A stretch of 64,000 bases of DNA, taken from NCBI GenBank assembly GCA_947454235.1, contig CANGIY010000001.1, positions 1-64,000 of the forward strand. Direction: 5' to 3'. Shown here one piece after another: positions 58,246 through 64,000 of this stretch. The position numbers and the translations under genes were made by a program. Below the pieces are notes generated by a model, which made no database searches, was not told where the DNA came from, and worked only from the letters and a program-made list of their open reading frames with translations. The stretch comes from Chitinophagaceae bacterium. Lineage in GTDB: Bacteria; Bacteroidota; Bacteroidia; Chitinophagales; Chitinophagaceae. Each line of letters begins with the position of its first letter. The first letter of the stretch is position 1.

Positions 58246-59646
58246 TTATTTCATTTCACCCACCATGTCGCCAGGAATTACCCATTCGTCAAATTGTTCA
58301 GGGGTAACGTAGCCGAGGGCTACAGCTTCGTGTTTGAGGGTGGTGCCGTTTTTGTGGGCTGTTTGTGCAATTTCTGCAGCTTTATAGTAACCAATTTTGG
58401 TGTTCAAGGCTGTAACCAGCATAAGGCTGTTGGCTACGTGCTTAGCGATGTTCGCTTCAATTGGTTCAATACCTACTGCGCATTTGTCGTTGAAAGAAAC
58501 GCAACCTTCACCAATCAGGCGGGCACTGTGCAGGAAGTTATAAATCATCATTGGTTTGAACACATTCAGTTCGAAGTGACCTGTTGCACCACCAATGTTG
58601 ATCGCTACGTCGTTACCCATTACCTGTGCAGCAATCATTGTTAACGCTTCGCACTGAGTAGGGTTTACTTTACCCGGCATGATAGAGCTACCCGGTTCGT
58701 TATCAGGGATATGGATTTCACCAATTCCTGCGCGCGGACCAGAACTCAACATCCTGATGTCGTTAGCGATTTTCATAAGGCTAACAGCAACAGTTTTCAA
58801 AGCACCATGTGCTTCTACAATCGCATCGTGCGCAGCCAGGCTTTCGAATTTGTTTTCAGCAGTTACAAATGGCAAACCGGTGAGTTGTGCAATAGTTTCA
58901 GCCACTTTTACAGCATATCCTTTCGGAGTGTTGATGCCTGTACCTACCGCAGTGCCACCCAAAGCCAGTTCGCTGAGGTGAGCTAAAGTATTATTAATTG
59001 CTTTCAGTCCGTGATCGAGCTGAGACACATAACCGCTCAATTCCTGACCCAGTGTAAGCGGCGTAGCGTCCATGAAGTGCGTACGGCCAATTTTCACCAC
59101 GTGCATGTATTCTTTTGACTTTGCAGCCAAAGTATCTCTCAGCTTTTTAATACCCGGAATGGTAACATCAACCAGCATTTTGTATGCTGCGATGTGCATT
59201 GCTGTCGGGAAAGTATCGTTCGAAGACTGTGATTTATTGACATCGTCGTTAGGTGCCAGAAACTTGTCTTTGTCGTTCAGGTCGCCGCCTTTAAGTACGT
59301 GCCCGCGATAAGCAACAACTTCGTTCACATTCATATTCGATTGTGTACCCGAACCGGTTTGCCATACTACCAATGGGAATTCAGCATCCAGTTTGCCTTC
59401 CAGAATTTCGTCACAAACAATACCAATGAGGTCGCTTTTTTCTTGTGGTAAAACACCCAAAGCGCAGTTAGTGATCGCTGCCGCTTTTTTCAGGTATGCA
59501 AATGCGCGAATAATTTCTTTCGGCATTTTGTTGGTGTCCTGAGCGATTTTGAAGTTGTCAATCGAACGCTGAGTTTGCGCTCCGTAATAGGCTGAAGCAG
59601 GTACTTCCACATAGCCCATTGTGTCTTTTTCTGTCCTGAATTGCAT
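58246..59646 (-). CDS. fumC: Class II fumarate hydratase
   Basis: 466 residues from ATG 59646 (the frame continues to 59736 but that part is leader sequence and holds the promoter). Fumarase/aspartase superfamily: [49 protein letters not shown] and signature [15 protein letters not shown] at around residue 320. Converts fumarate to malate in the TCA cycle, cytosolic. Confidence 0.94.
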
Positions 59647-59681
59647 AGTTATATTGTAAAGTTTTATTCCTTTTTCGGGCG

Positions 59682-59689
59682 CAAAGATA
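59682..59689 (-). promoter_or_regulatory. -7 box of fumC
   Basis: Minus strand TATCTTTG followed by CGCC; leader about 30 bases. Confidence 0.5.
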
Positions 59690-59914
59690 ACCATTAATGC
59701 AACCTTTTTAAGATGTTTTAAGTCAGGTGAAAACAATGTGCAGAGGTGCTGATTTTAGTGTAATCGAGCGCACTGCTGCACTAACATTTGGCGTGAATAA
59801 AACGATTCAAAATTTTTTAATCGTAATTTTTATGATTTCAAAAAATGTTCATTTATATTTACCTTCATAACATTAATTTCAACTTGTTCGTGTGGCTTTT
59901 TTAATACTTACAAC

Positions 59915-59941
59915 ATGAGCGATTTAAAAACTAAAAAATGA
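59915..59941 (+). CDS. 8-codon leader ORF coupled to the oxidoreductase operon
   Basis: ATG 59915 encodes MSDLKTKK and stops at TGA 59939-59941, which overlaps the ATG (59938) of the next gene as ATGA. No RBS is needed for the downstream start if ribosomes re-initiate. May be chance; the overlap is the only evidence. Confidence 0.35.
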   Translation: MSDLKTKK

Positions 59942-60375
59942 GAAACACAGAAAGATTAAAGCTATTTGCGAAAATCTCGGCGGTGCTCACAGGTTTCAAT
60001 GTAATGGAGCTTTGGGGAACCAGTATGATGGAGACATACTTTTATTGGGTGAATGCGCAAACGAAGGGCGCAGAGCTGGACAGCTTTTATGCTGAATTTG
60101 AAAAAGTATTTACTTACAACGTTACAGATGAAGCTATTGACAGAGCTGTTGCTGATTCAATAATGCCTAAAGAGTCATTTGGCGGACTTGCTAACGCAAT
60201 CATCACGCTGTGGTACCTCGGGCAATGGACGTGTGGAGAAGGTGAAAAAGCGAAGACATACATTCCAACTCCTGAGGCGTATCAGCAAGGTTTAATATGG
60301 CTAATTGGTCAGACTCACCCGCCGGGCGCCAAACAACCGGGCTATGGTTCATGGGCTACAACTCCCGATAAATAA
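59938..60375 (+). CDS. FAD-sorbitol-dehydrogenase-like small subunit
   Basis: 145 residues. The C-terminal half (LANAIITLWYLGQW, YIPTPEAYQQGLIWLIGQ, then GYGSWATTP) follows the pattern of the membrane-bound D-sorbitol/fructose dehydrogenase small-subunit family (conserved I-x2-WYLG, PEA-YxxGLxW, WA-x-P). The usual Tat signal peptide is absent, so this version is probably cytoplasmic. It lies 34 bases upstream of the GMC flavoprotein gene, as expected for a partner subunit. First gene of a three-gene unit. Confidence 0.72.
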   Translation: MRNTERLKLFAKISAVLTGFNVMELWGTSMMETYFYWVNAQTKGAELDSFYAEFEKVFTYNVTDEAIDRAVADSIMPKESFGGLANAIITLWYLGQWTCGEGEKAKTYIPTPEAYQQGLIWLIGQTHPPGAKQPGYGSWATTPDK

Positions 60376-60409
60376 ACTCTTTCTAACAACCAACTAAACA
60401 GATAATAAA

Positions 60410-62284
60410 ATGAGTGATAAAAAACAATATGACGTAGTGATAGTAGGTTCCGGCATTGCGGGAGCTATTATTGCTAAAACACTTACCCATGCGGGTAAGA
60501 GCGTGCTGATACTTGAAGCCGGGCTGGAACAAGGCATGGATTTAGACCCTACAGGTGCTGCCGCCAACTACCAAAACTACCTCAATACTTATTATACCAA
60601 CCCAATTAAGGTGCCTAACTCACCATACCCTAATTTAAAGGTTGCGCCTTCGGCTGATGTGATTGATATCAAAGCCGACACTCCTTACGATACGGGATAT
60701 CTGGTTCAAAAGGGTCCTGTGCCTTTTGCAAGCGACAATTTCAGGGGGCCGGGTGGTACCACATTGCACTGGCTCGGCACCACACTGCGTATGCTACCCA
60801 ACGATTTCAAAATGAAATCGAAATACGGTGTCGCCGTCGATTGGCCATTTGAATATGAAACCATGAAACGTTTCTACGAAATGGCTGAGTTTGAAATCGG
60901 CGTTTCGGGCAATGTAGGCGAGCAAGTGTTGCCGAACGTAGATAAAGACTTCTTTGGCAGCAAGTATGTTTTCCCGATGGAAAAGATACCTCAAAGCTAT
61001 ATGGACGGTGTAATCATGAGAAATACAGACAACCTGAAAGTAAAACTGAACGGTTCGGAATATAAAATACGTTGCACCAGTACACCACAAGGTCGTAATT
61101 CTGACCCCAACATCAAGTATAAGAGGAAAGGTGTTAAGTGGGATAAGCGCGAGGGCGCACTTAAAATGTACAATGGCGGCGAAAGGTATGAATACCAACC
61201 AGTTCCTTCAGTTTTTGACCCATATCAGGGCGAAAGGTGCGAGGGTAACGCAAGTTGCGTTCCTATTTGCCCGGTGCAGGCAAAGTATAACGCGCTAAAA
61301 ACCATTAAGAGTGCAGAATCGAAAAACTTGACCATCTATGTTCAATCGGTGGTTTCGAAAGTGAAGCTTGATAAGACAAAAAAGCACATTACCGGAATAG
61401 AATACAAAAGATACACTCGTCCTGATAAATCGGAATATACCGAGCATACGATTGAGGGAGAGATATATGTGCTGGCAGGTAGCGCCATCGAGAATGCTAA
61501 AATGTTGCTGGCTTCAGGTGCAGCAAACTCCAGCGATCAAGTGGGTAGAAACCTGATGGATCACATGGTAATGCTTACCTGGGGGTTAACACCTGAAAAG
61601 GTTTATCCGTACCGCGGTCCGGGTTCAACTACCAATATCCCGACTTTCCGTGATGGTGTTTTCAGGAAAGACCATACTGCGTGGATTTCTCCGCTCGATA
61701 ACTGGGGTTGGGCTTGGCCAACAGGTGCACCTGCAACAACACTTTCTGATTGTTTAGCGAAAGGGCAATTTGGGAAGCATTTAAGGGCTTCGATTCATGA
61801 AAACATGACACGTCAGTTTTTACTGCACTTTGAGTGTGAGCAAACCCCTGACCCGAATAACCGTGTGACGATTGATGAAAAGTATAAGGACATACTGGGC
61901 AACTACAGGCCTGTTATCAGCTACAACATTACCGATTACGTTAGAAAAGCTTTCGAAGCTTCGATGACTGTGTCAAAACAGATTTTTGAAGCATCAGGCA
62001 TTAAAGATGAAACAAAATACAACCCTACAGACCCTGATTGCGTTGAATACAACGGTGTATTTTATAAATTCAACGGTGCTGGTCACATAGTAGGCACACA
62101 CCGCATGGGCTCGAGTCCTAAAGATTCGGTAGTTGACCCTGACATGCGCTGCTGGGATCATAAAAACCTATTCCTTGCCGGTTGTGGTAACATGCCAACA
62201 CTAGGCACTTCTAATCCAACACTTACTATGGCAGCACTTGCTTTCAAATCGGCGGAAGCTATTCTTAAACAATTAGAATCATAA
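60410..62284 (+). CDS. GMC-family FAD oxidoreductase (sorbitol/gluconate dehydrogenase-like)
   Basis: 624 residues. FAD Rossmann start YDVVIVGSGIAGAIIAKTLT (G13-x-G15-x-x-G18), FRGPGGTTLHWLGTTLRM near 110-127 (FAD/substrate loop), the Cys motif CEGNASCVPICPVQA near 277-291, and C-terminal HIVGTHRMGSSPKDSVV and TSNPTLTMAALAF, matching the GMC active-site His and closing helix. Large-subunit type of FAD sugar/alcohol dehydrogenases, but without a signal peptide. Substrate unknown. Operon with the small subunit and the ferritin-like protein (4-base gap). Confidence 0.85.
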   Translation: MSDKKQYDVVIVGSGIAGAIIAKTLTHAGKSVLILEAGLEQGMDLDPTGAAANYQNYLNTYYTNPIKVPNSPYPNLKVAPSADVIDIKADTPYDTGYLVQKGPVPFASDNFRGPGGTTLHWLGTTLRMLPNDFKMKSKYGVAVDWPFEYETMKRFYEMAEFEIGVSGNVGEQVLPNVDKDFFGSKYVFPMEKIPQSYMDGVIMRNTDNLKVKLNGSEYKIRCTSTPQGRNSDPNIKYKRKGVKWDKREGALKMYNGGERYEYQPVPSVFDPYQGERCEGNASCVPICPVQAKYNALKTIKSAESKNLTIYVQSVVSKVKLDKTKKHITGIEYKRYTRPDKSEYTEHTIEGEIYVLAGSAIENAKMLLASGAANSSDQVGRNLMDHMVMLTWGLTPEKVYPYRGPGSTTNIPTFRDGVFRKDHTAWISPLDNWGWAWPTGAPATTLSDCLAKGQFGKHLRASIHENMTRQFLLHFECEQTPDPNNRVTIDEKYKDILGNYRPVISYNITDYVRKAFEASMTVSKQIFEASGIKDETKYNPTDPDCVEYNGVFYKFNGAGHIVGTHRMGSSPKDSVVDPDMRCWDHKNLFLAGCGNMPTLGTSNPTLTMAALAFKSAEAILKQLES

Positions 62285-62288
62285 AACA

Positions 62289-63416
62289 ATGAATAAACAA
62301 TATCTACAGGATACGGACAATAACAAAAAACGTCAGATACTTTTCAATGAAGAGCTACAGGAAGCCGTGTTGCTACAGGCTGACGCTAGTAAATCAGCAG
62401 GTGAGCCCATTAGAACGCTCGATGAACTGAAGGAAGCTTTGCAGCAGGCTATAGAGCTAGAACACACTACTATTCCTGCCTACCTTTCAGCATTGTATTC
62501 AATTAAAGATGGCACGAATCCCGAATCGATAAAAAATATCCGTGGTGTTGCTGTGGAAGAGATGCTGCACATGGTGTTGGCTGCCAACTTGCTCAATGCA
62601 ATTGGTGGTGCTCCGGTTATCAACAAACCGGGCTTTATACCAAAGTACCCATACAAAATGGAGCTTTCAGATGAACCATTCGAAGTAAACTTAGACTATT
62701 TCAGTCCTGATTCAATCAGTGTGTTCATGCACATTGAAAAACCACAGCCAACCAATAAACCACCGGCACCGGGCGTTTACCACTCTATCGGGCAATTTTA
62801 TACCGCCATATACCGCGCTATGCACAGGCTAGACAAACATACTCCGGGTGGCATTTTTGTGGGCGACCATTCTAAACAAATTACAAGCGAGCATTACTAT
62901 GGCAGTGGTGGAAAGCTAATTGGTGTTTACGATATGAAATCAGCCCACATTGCTATACTTGAAATCATAGGTCAGGGTGAGGGTGTAGACGGTTCCATCA
63001 TTGACTCTGATTCTGTACTGTTTGGTGAAGATGTAGAACTCGCGCATTATTTCAGGTTTTCTGAGATTTATTATGAACGGCATTATCGCGAAGACGACAA
63101 CTCGTCTCAGCCACCAACGGGTAAGCCACTACCCGTGAATTGGAGTGCTGTTCAGAAATTTAAGAAGAACATGAAAATGAATGATTATGAGCAAGGTTCG
63201 GCCTTGTGGAGGGCAGCGTTGGATTTCAACATCACTTACAATCAGTTGTTGAACAACATTCACATTGCCTGCAACGGTAATCCTGCTCATATTTCAAAAG
63301 GCATCGGACTTATGTACGACCTAAAGTATAAAGCAGTTGCCTTAATGAACATGCCAATGGGCGATGGCTGGTATGCCGCACCTACCTTTGAATACGTTCC
63401 ACTCGATCAAATCTAA
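62289..63416 (+). CDS. VioB-like ferritin-fold protein (iminophenylpyruvate dimer synthase type)
   Basis: 375 residues. The N-terminal half matches the ferritin-like domain of VioB/StaD-type enzymes: IELEHTTIPAYLSALYSI (E58/H59), then VAVEEMLHMVLAANLLNAIG (E90/E91/H94), GGAPVINKPGFIPKYPYKM, followed by LEIIGQGEGVDGS and LAHYFRFSEIYYERHY, the second pair of expected metal ligands. VioB dimerises the imine form of oxidised tryptophan in violacein synthesis. Here it may process a product of the GMC oxidase encoded four bases upstream; this is inference. A terminator follows at 63427-63457. Confidence 0.82.
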   Translation: MNKQYLQDTDNNKKRQILFNEELQEAVLLQADASKSAGEPIRTLDELKEALQQAIELEHTTIPAYLSALYSIKDGTNPESIKNIRGVAVEEMLHMVLAANLLNAIGGAPVINKPGFIPKYPYKMELSDEPFEVNLDYFSPDSISVFMHIEKPQPTNKPPAPGVYHSIGQFYTAIYRAMHRLDKHTPGGIFVGDHSKQITSEHYYGSGGKLIGVYDMKSAHIAILEIIGQGEGVDGSIIDSDSVLFGEDVELAHYFRFSEIYYERHYREDDNSSQPPTGKPLPVNWSAVQKFKKNMKMNDYEQGSALWRAALDFNITYNQLLNNIHIACNGNPAHISKGIGLMYDLKYKAVALMNMPMGDGWYAAPTFEYVPLDQI

Positions 63417-63426
63417 TAATTTAGCG

Positions 63427-63457
63427 ATGCGCCTGCCGAAAAAGCAGGCGCATTTTT
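63427..63457 (+). terminator. Rho-independent terminator of the oxidoreductase operon
   Basis: Perfect 10-bp stem ATGCGCCTGC / GCAGGCGCAT (63427-63436 and 63444-63453) followed by TTTT, just beyond the stop at 63416. Confidence 0.9.
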
Positions 63458-64000
63458 ATTTCAATTCTCCACCCAGAAAATACCTTACTTCATTCACCGC
63501 ATAGGTTATCCTATCTGGGTGTTCGTAGTAGGGAAGCCCTATCCTTACGATGTGGTAAATAGTATCGCCGAATGGCTGGTTTTTAATGCATTTGGTATGA
63601 ATGCCGCATTGGTTGAGGTAGGCATACAATGGGTAAGGGTCGTACTCCGTGAACCCTAATGAAATCATCGGACTATCGCAGTCTTCATTCAAGAATACAT
63701 AGTGGTGCGGGAAAGCGTCCAAAACACCTTTGAGCTGTTGCTGCATCAGTTTCCCGAGGTATTTTGAGCGGTTAAGAATGTTCGCTTTTCCGGTATCTCT
63801 ATAAAGTTTCAATGCCTCGCACATAGATGCGTACATAGAAAAGTCTTGCCCACCGTGTTGTTTGAAAGATCCTATCTGGTCGGTAGTGGCATTTTGCAGC
63901 ACGTCCCAAAAAATACCTTCCAGCCATCGCGCGCACGATTGCCTTATCCACATCAATCCACCTCCATGAGGTCCGTGCAGCCACTTGTGCGCACTGCTCA
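63456..64000 (-). CDS. Class V PLP-dependent enzyme, C-terminal part (runs off right edge)
   Basis: 181 codons are visible up to the window edge. The PLP lysine is seen in SSAHKWLHGPHGGG, the typical class V aminotransferase/desulfurase/epimerase context, read from 63998 down. Then SFKQHGGQDFSMYASMCEAL and the small domain with HIVRIGLPYYEHPDR. No start in the window. Could be a cysteine desulfurase-like or isopenicillin-epimerase-like enzyme; too little is visible to choose. Confidence 0.78.
   Translation of the reverse strand, partial: SSAHKWLHGPHGGGLMWIRQSCARWLEGIFWDVLQNATTDQIGSFKQHGGQDFSMYASMCEALKLYRDTGKANILNRSKYLGKLMQQQLKGVLDAFPHHYVFLNEDCDSPMISLGFTEYDPYPLYAYLNQCGIHTKCIKNQPFGDTIYHIVRIGLPYYEHPDRITYAVNEVRYFLGGELK

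Follow-up and report, generated by a model that had tools for sequence, protein, structure and literature searches.

How could a flavin-dependent dehydrogenase pair and a ferritin-like protein, encoded side by side in one operon, work together? The question is raised by a locus in the first 64,000 nucleotides of contig CANGIY010000001.1 from a Chitinophagaceae bacterium (assembly GCA_947454235.1), a stretch referred to throughout as the window. Three genes of its + strand are concerned: SS (59938..60375; 145 aa), with the small (hitchhiker) subunit fold seen in the dehydrogenases of glucose and fructose that depend on flavin adenine dinucleotide (FAD); GMC (60410..62284; 624 aa), resembling the catalytic subunit of FAD/[3Fe-4S] dehydrogenases; and FER (62289..63416; 375 aa), a ferritin-like protein of the Pfam family PF12902 with a putative diiron site. 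The answer that we favour, tentatively and short of calling it probable, is that the trio constitutes an oxidation unit in which electrons collected by the GMC-SS pair reach FER and then O2.

Gene order and conservation of the trio

The genes are arranged in the order SS-GMC-FER, with gaps of 34 bases between SS and GMC and 4 bases between GMC and FER, and the operon ends at an intrinsic-terminator-like hairpin with a T-rich tail (63426..63454, + strand; 11 pairs, 7 of them G-C). An earlier, sequence-only reading of this DNA had described a tight, one-strand operon with a terminator, which our results confirm, in the order GMC, small subunit and ferritin, which they correct. The hairpin has the most pairs among the seven terminator-like sites found, shuffled sequence averaging 4.5 sites, and, lying between convergent genes, it may serve both. 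Both flanking genes, a fumarase-like lyase upstream (58246-59736) and a piece of a class V aminotransferase downstream (63456-63998; full frame 807 aa), occupy the opposite strand, and the transcript therefore probably comprises SS, GMC and FER only. At 0.442, compared with 0.428 over the whole window, the G+C content of the trio does not point to recent transfer.

In total, 54 loci carrying a close relative of FER or GMC were opened; in 39, the window's own not among them, the three genes are adjacent. This rate is biased because the loci were reached via FER or GMC, with plasmid and genome loci added, and it includes two doubtful trios, one with GMC split over several open reading frames (ORFs) (L118) and one with a FER only 30% identical (L109). 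Among the 80 loci with FER relatives that were kept, SS and GMC accompany 26 of the 27 closest FER genes (L007-L033; the exception is L032) and none of the other 53, presence being called by tblastn at E 1e-3 inside fetched stretches of differing length. Within Bacteroidota the hosts are mostly Chryseobacterium, together with Chitinophagaceae and a Maribacter; elsewhere they belong to Magnetococcales, Rhizobium, Agrobacterium, Pararhizobium, Ruegeria, Cupriavidus, Pseudoalteromonas and Gloeothece. The expectation that the three genes would be conserved together thus held across phyla in a survey of homologues and their neighbourhoods. SS-GMC-FER is the order in the majority of trios, the orders GMC-FER-SS and S-G-G-F-S (with a second GMC and SS) being also found. 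The nearest in-frame FER start lies at most 10 nt from the GMC stop in 34 of the 39 trios, under a rule that is biased to small gaps: it gives overlaps in L115 and L117, whose deposited FER starts are some 150 and 98 bases downstream of the GMC gene. Comparison of the SS, GMC and FER distance matrices over 16 loci gives correlations of r 0.85-0.88 (GMC against FER, r 0.884), values that are uncorrected for phylogeny.

The module is nonetheless rare and patchy in the genus of the window, where 2 of 11 genomes hold a GMC match, the same number as hold the window's downstream neighbour. In Bacteroidota at large GMC was matched at E<=1e-40 in 4 of 395 genomes and FER at E<=1e-20 in 3 of 296; each of these four counts includes the window's own genome. 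In literature searches of a library with few subscription journals, no listed paper was found to describe an SS-GMC-FER module.

Cofactor sites and predicted location

The closest known complexes are the FAD-glucose dehydrogenase of Burkholderia cepacia (BcGDH; 6a2u) and the fructose dehydrogenase of Gluconobacter japonicus (7w2j/8jej/9jqa). GMC matches GMC_oxred_C (4.2e-21) and GMC_oxred_N (1.6e-11) in Pfam, and its best matches in the PDB are FAD-glucose dehydrogenase 6a2u (1.2e-76) and fructose dehydrogenase (7.8e-72). Pyranose oxidase (TIGR02462) was rejected as an identity, the score being 76.5 bits against a curated cut-off of 544.9. Residues H120, C277, C283, C287, H559 and N602 are invariant in all 17 aligned GMC proteins, chosen from the loci at hand. 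In residue alignment H120 coincides with His105 of BcGDH, C277/C283/C287 with its Cys212/Cys218/Cys222, and H559/N602 with its His/Asn pair, so that the trio has in common with both known enzymes a histidine at the FAD-linking position, the [3Fe-4S] cysteines and the His/Asn pair. According to the BcGDH study, His105 links FAD, the three cysteines hold the [3Fe-4S] cluster, which passes electrons on to the cytochrome subunit of that enzyme, and the His/Asn pair is present (PMC6719666). The sequence-only reading had not mentioned the conserved [3Fe-4S] cysteines; their retention suggests that electrons are exported from GMC and would imply that they leave to a protein partner.

SS was harder to place. 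It gave only a sub-threshold Pfam match (PF12318, 15.6 bits against 24.2); sequence search against the PDB alone yielded no real match and profile search a weak one, and no small subunit was among the Foldseek matches listed for SS by itself. Its likeness to the small subunits of FAD-glucose and fructose dehydrogenases was settled by re-alignment, which identifies it as a homologue with the same fold. Together with the PDB matches and the invariant residues of GMC, this upholds the proposal of a GMC/small-subunit pair.

The trio departs from these complexes in three respects. First, the operon holds no gene for a cytochrome c subunit, FER being present instead. Second, the cysteine for the inter-subunit disulfide of the Burkholderia enzyme is missing: the study of that enzyme places this bond at Cys213 (PMC6719666), a position at which 0 of the 17 GMC proteins have a cysteine, and only 2 of 43 SS proteins have one within their last 60 residues, a pattern that fits a reducing compartment. 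Third, the window SS, unlike the small subunits of the known enzymes, shows no twin-arginine (Tat) motif in its first 60 residues. The underlying pattern scan, for RRx[hydrophobic], was negative in the first 60 residues of GMC and FER too, and over the same region of the three proteins peak 15-residue mean hydropathy reached 1.49 in SS, 0.62 in FER and 2.03 in GMC, the last peak falling on the GxGxxG strand. This simple scan, which is not a signal-peptide predictor, agrees with the view that signal peptides are missing from both subunits. Judged by eye from their N-termini, FMP, ADC-like, Dabb and BBE proteins encoded beside trios also appear unexported.

FER matches PF12902 with E 1.2e-60 (205.5 bits, gathering score 22.3). 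Residue conservation marks E58, E91xxH94, E231 and E250xxH253 as putative diiron ligands, beside invariant E150 and Y171, and the two glutamate-histidine motifs, E58 and E231 all match a true VioB (L126). A conserved motif of ferritin type was accordingly found, as had been anticipated, on residue conservation only; a site of this kind would bind two irons. A role as a storage ferritin is disfavoured. The ferritin-like part and its E/ExxH/QGEG/ExxH residues are common to FER and VioB, of which one sequence was checked, and presumably also to StaD and RebD, which with VioB make up the iminophenyl-pyruvate dimer synthases. VioB works with an amino-acid oxidase, VioA, whereas the partner of FER is a GMC dehydrogenase. 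The description of FER as VioB-type therefore stands for the PF12902 part and the metal-site residues and fails for function: FER scores 32.9 bits against TIGR04492, at positions 672-844 of a 1003-position model with a cut-off of 1250 bits, it shares 27% identity with a single true VioB in an alignment of 242 aa, and, covering the PF12902 part only, it misses the N-terminal ~600 residues. On score and length, VioB was ruled out as a direct functional parallel. The structure of Caulobacter CC_0557 (3hl1; PF12902, 28% identity) is entitled simply 'ferritin like protein'.

Electron acceptor or sequential enzyme

In the scheme that we favour, SS, GMC and FER would form one oxidation unit in the cytosol. 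SS would hold and shield GMC, as in FAD-glucose and fructose dehydrogenases; GMC would remove two electrons from a hydroxyl of a small molecule, possibly a sugar, a cyclitol or another alcohol; and the electrons would exit FAD via a surface [3Fe-4S] cluster. The known relatives deliver them to a cytochrome c subunit located outside the cytosol, whose place as acceptor FER would take in the trio. The diiron site of FER would then use the electrons on O2, with the protein serving as a terminal oxidase or else as an oxygenase of the same pathway. The subunit identities, the conserved cofactor residues, the conserved adjacency and the absence of any convincing cytochrome c gene near the window trio are the parts of the scheme that derive from sequence or structure comparison. 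The route from GMC-SS to FER is favoured because the [3Fe-4S] cysteines imply electron exit and because, the pair itself apart, FER alone among redox-type proteins occurs in every trio.

The distribution of cytochrome-like genes bears on this route. No CxxCH ORF of at least 80 aa was found within 13 kb upstream of the window trio, and the only one in the 16 kb downstream is a 109-aa frame (contig 65550-65879, + strand) that is probably not a gene, because the 807-aa aminotransferase frame lies opposite; over this range a convincing cytochrome c gene is absent. Within the family to which the window belongs, the GMC profile matches 6 of 294 genomes, in four of which a FER-type gene adjoins GMC (G000, G409, G485 and G391, that of G391 being just 30% identical). 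The remaining two (G497 and G445) lack an adjacent FER, as does G984, of the same genus as the window, where two contig ends were covered. In these three genomes the gene directly 5' of SS codes for a lipoprotein-like protein of 445-496 aa with one CxxCH near its end, and the idea that a pair without FER has no partner at all is wrong for them. That these three FER-less loci carry a CxxCH protein and the window trio does not suggests that FER takes the place of the cytochrome. Two further FER relatives pair again with an iron-sulfur protein and were counted for the electron-acceptor reading: one is fused to CDGSH and Fer4_19 domains (L106, 5276-7075, - strand; 44% identical to the window FER) and the other is followed by a CDGSH/Fer4_19 gene in Streptomyces (L090, 7842-9742).

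Several observations weigh against FER as the acceptor. CxxCH ORFs occur in 8 of the 38 trio stretches scanned: L016 and L023 have a same-strand CxxCH lipoprotein downstream, after FMP and ADC genes, and L010, L013, L018 and L020 an other-strand ORF with two motifs, which in L020, the one tested, is a CCP_MauG peroxidase; in L101 and L111 the ORF is a short frame inside the GMC region. In Streptomyces L116 and Rhizobium L113, SS-GMC stands without FER and also without any convincing CxxCH gene; L113, whose second GMC is broken, is probably decayed. E250 is retained in only 33 of 42 wider FER relatives. Three changes of the trio label are required on the FER tree, at least two when judged by its well-supported branches, and forms paired with CDGSH or c8 fall between those of the trios; partners were therefore swapped or lost. 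Some FER relatives have no obvious electron donor, namely those paired with c8 proteins (described below), those alone or with another FER (L032, L102) and the MNIO-type. As regards location, the BcGDH paper indicates that the inter-subunit disulfide cysteine is not conserved in exported relatives either (PMC6719666), and the SS proteins of the three FER-less loci with a CxxCH lipoprotein also lack a visible signal, though the adjacent protein looks exported. The cytosolic operation claimed in the sequence-only reading is thus plausible and also weakened, since signal-less SS proteins adjoin lipoprotein-like CxxCH proteins and the lack of a signal is not secure proof of a cytosolic protein. 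Finally, by analogy with VioB and its kin, which act on substrates, FER may be a sequential enzyme.

This last point leads to a two-step pathway, which we regard as a serious possibility, if not a probable one: GMC-SS would make a carbonyl with another acceptor, and FER, as a diiron oxidase or oxygenase, would convert the product by decarboxylation, ring opening, hydroxylation or coupling. It widens an idea of the sequence-only reading beyond dimerisation. It draws on the metal-site residues common to FER and true VioB, on the 39% identity of the window FER to an Azospirillum FER paired with a ~670-aa protein resembling the VioB N-terminal part, and on neighbours that look like those of a pathway. 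With a profile made from a part of the trio loci themselves, a gene for an 'FMP-type' heme protein (NCBI NF040571/NF040572) was detected in the fetched stretches of 28 of the 39, mostly directly after FER; Chryseobacterium accounts for 21 of the 28. Of 41 scanned loci, 11 have ADC-like genes, three of these outside Bacteroidota (L112, L116, L118), and BBE, Dabb and Cupin_5 genes are present at some loci. In five proteobacterial loci the trio has GH15, IolE-type and sugar-epimerase neighbours, IolE scoring above cut-off in all four tested (L087, L111, L114, L117). Sugar or cyclitol chemistry is indicated for these loci, and Bacteroidota may use other substrates. Imine coupling or dimerisation as originally proposed finds no support: the closest solved GMC proteins are sugar dehydrogenases, and the proteobacterial neighbours are those just named. 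A two-step pathway leaves unexplained why the [3Fe-4S] cysteines are retained with no cytochrome gene nearby, and why a CxxCH protein stands at three FER-less Bacteroidota loci. Moreover, the accessory genes vary by group and none is next to the window trio, which has no adjacent FMP gene (three lie elsewhere in the same genome), so that a common downstream chemistry is not visible. We rank FER as acceptor above the two-step pathway; the two readings are compatible, and each assigns FER a diiron site active on O2.

If FER is indeed the acceptor, the trio would provide the first function class for a little-studied branch of PF12902. It would also show that the glucose/fructose dehydrogenase core, used in glucose sensors, has had its electron output switched from a cytochrome to a diiron protein, and would offer a simple three-protein system, with the FER loci, the CxxCH-lipoprotein loci and the FER-CDGSH fusion as a comparison set. 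A bolder version, a real possibility though short of probable, is a new bacterial oxidase in which a soluble FAD/[3Fe-4S] GMC dehydrogenase is wired directly to FER, electrons from the hydroxyls of sugars or cyclitols activate O2 without a respiratory chain, and the donor of FER (the GMC cluster or CDGSH) swaps between lineages.

A protective role appears unlikely; in that case FER, like Dps or ferritin, would store iron or remove peroxide and Fe(II) around the flavoenzyme, with the FMP heme protein at its side. Least likely of all is that GMC-SS is an ordinary sugar FAD-dehydrogenase with FER as an unrelated passenger of operon inheritance: the existence of GMC-SS pairs without FER speaks for it, but adjacency has held in three phyla despite changes of order, which passive inheritance would hardly achieve.

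Other FER loci and minor features

Beyond the CDGSH-paired L090 and L106 and the loci L032 (FER, no GMC) and L102 (two FER frames, no GMC), the 15 non-trio loci among the 54 comprise FER with c8 (L099, L107), with a c8-like or unnamed long gene (L088, L110) or with a GMC fragment (L089, L103), SS-GMC without FER (L113, L116), and SS-GMC with a CxxCH lipoprotein (G984, L147, L148). Proteins of ~670 aa (c8) are encoded directly upstream of FER at L088 (5927-7939), L099 (8279-10261, - strand) and L107 (8996-11047, - strand); that of L107 had no match in Pfam. These proteins show a weak, colinear likeness to the N-terminal region of VioB (22.6 bits for the Azospirillum protein, L088, in an NCBIfam comparison; 31.7 bits with a three-member profile), and the pairs of c8 and FER look like a two-gene, split VioB in Azospirillum and Bacteroidota.

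The genome of the window holds a second PF12902 gene on contig C28, in an MNIO-type peptide-modification locus (L133, 9602-13509) with MbnB/TglH/ChrH (PF05114) and DUF2063. MNIO (MbnB/TglH/ChrH) loci involve the same PF12902 family with different partners and, with 10 sampled, form a separate, fully supported clade; in the 54 non-trio PF12902 loci among the 80 kept, an MbnB-type homologue occurs in 49 and a DUF2063 homologue in 47. In fungi, PF12902 genes adjoin lodA/lodB-like genes, so that there too the PF12902 protein stands beside a redox enzyme pair, consisting of a quinoprotein oxidase and a LodB-like protein rather than GMC-SS (PMC4417212).

Lipoprotein-like proteins of 445-496 aa with one CxxCH, encoded beside GMC-SS or the trio, were located at L139 (2575-3921), L147 (9186-10523, - strand), L148 (4422-5912) and L016 (11879-13339), and belong to no Pfam family. 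A homologue of those of L139 and L147 is divergent to an MNIO-type FER in L037.

On two Rhizobium plasmids typed conjugative (L089, L103), FER stands beside a GMC fragment near an IS3 transposase; these are probably decaying copies of the module. GH15, GMC, FER, SS, IolE-type and sugar-epimerase genes are clustered in L087, L111, L114 and L117, with an MBL-fold protein and a TPP-dependent decarboxylase-like enzyme in addition in L114 and L117. In L117 (R. etli p42f) the module lies near AHL synthase and LuxR genes. Upstream of the window trio, inspection of the sequence shows an 8-codon mini-ORF running from ATG to TGA (59915..59941, + strand), the stop of which shares bases with the start codon of SS (ATGA); it is a possible leader, and may have arisen by chance.

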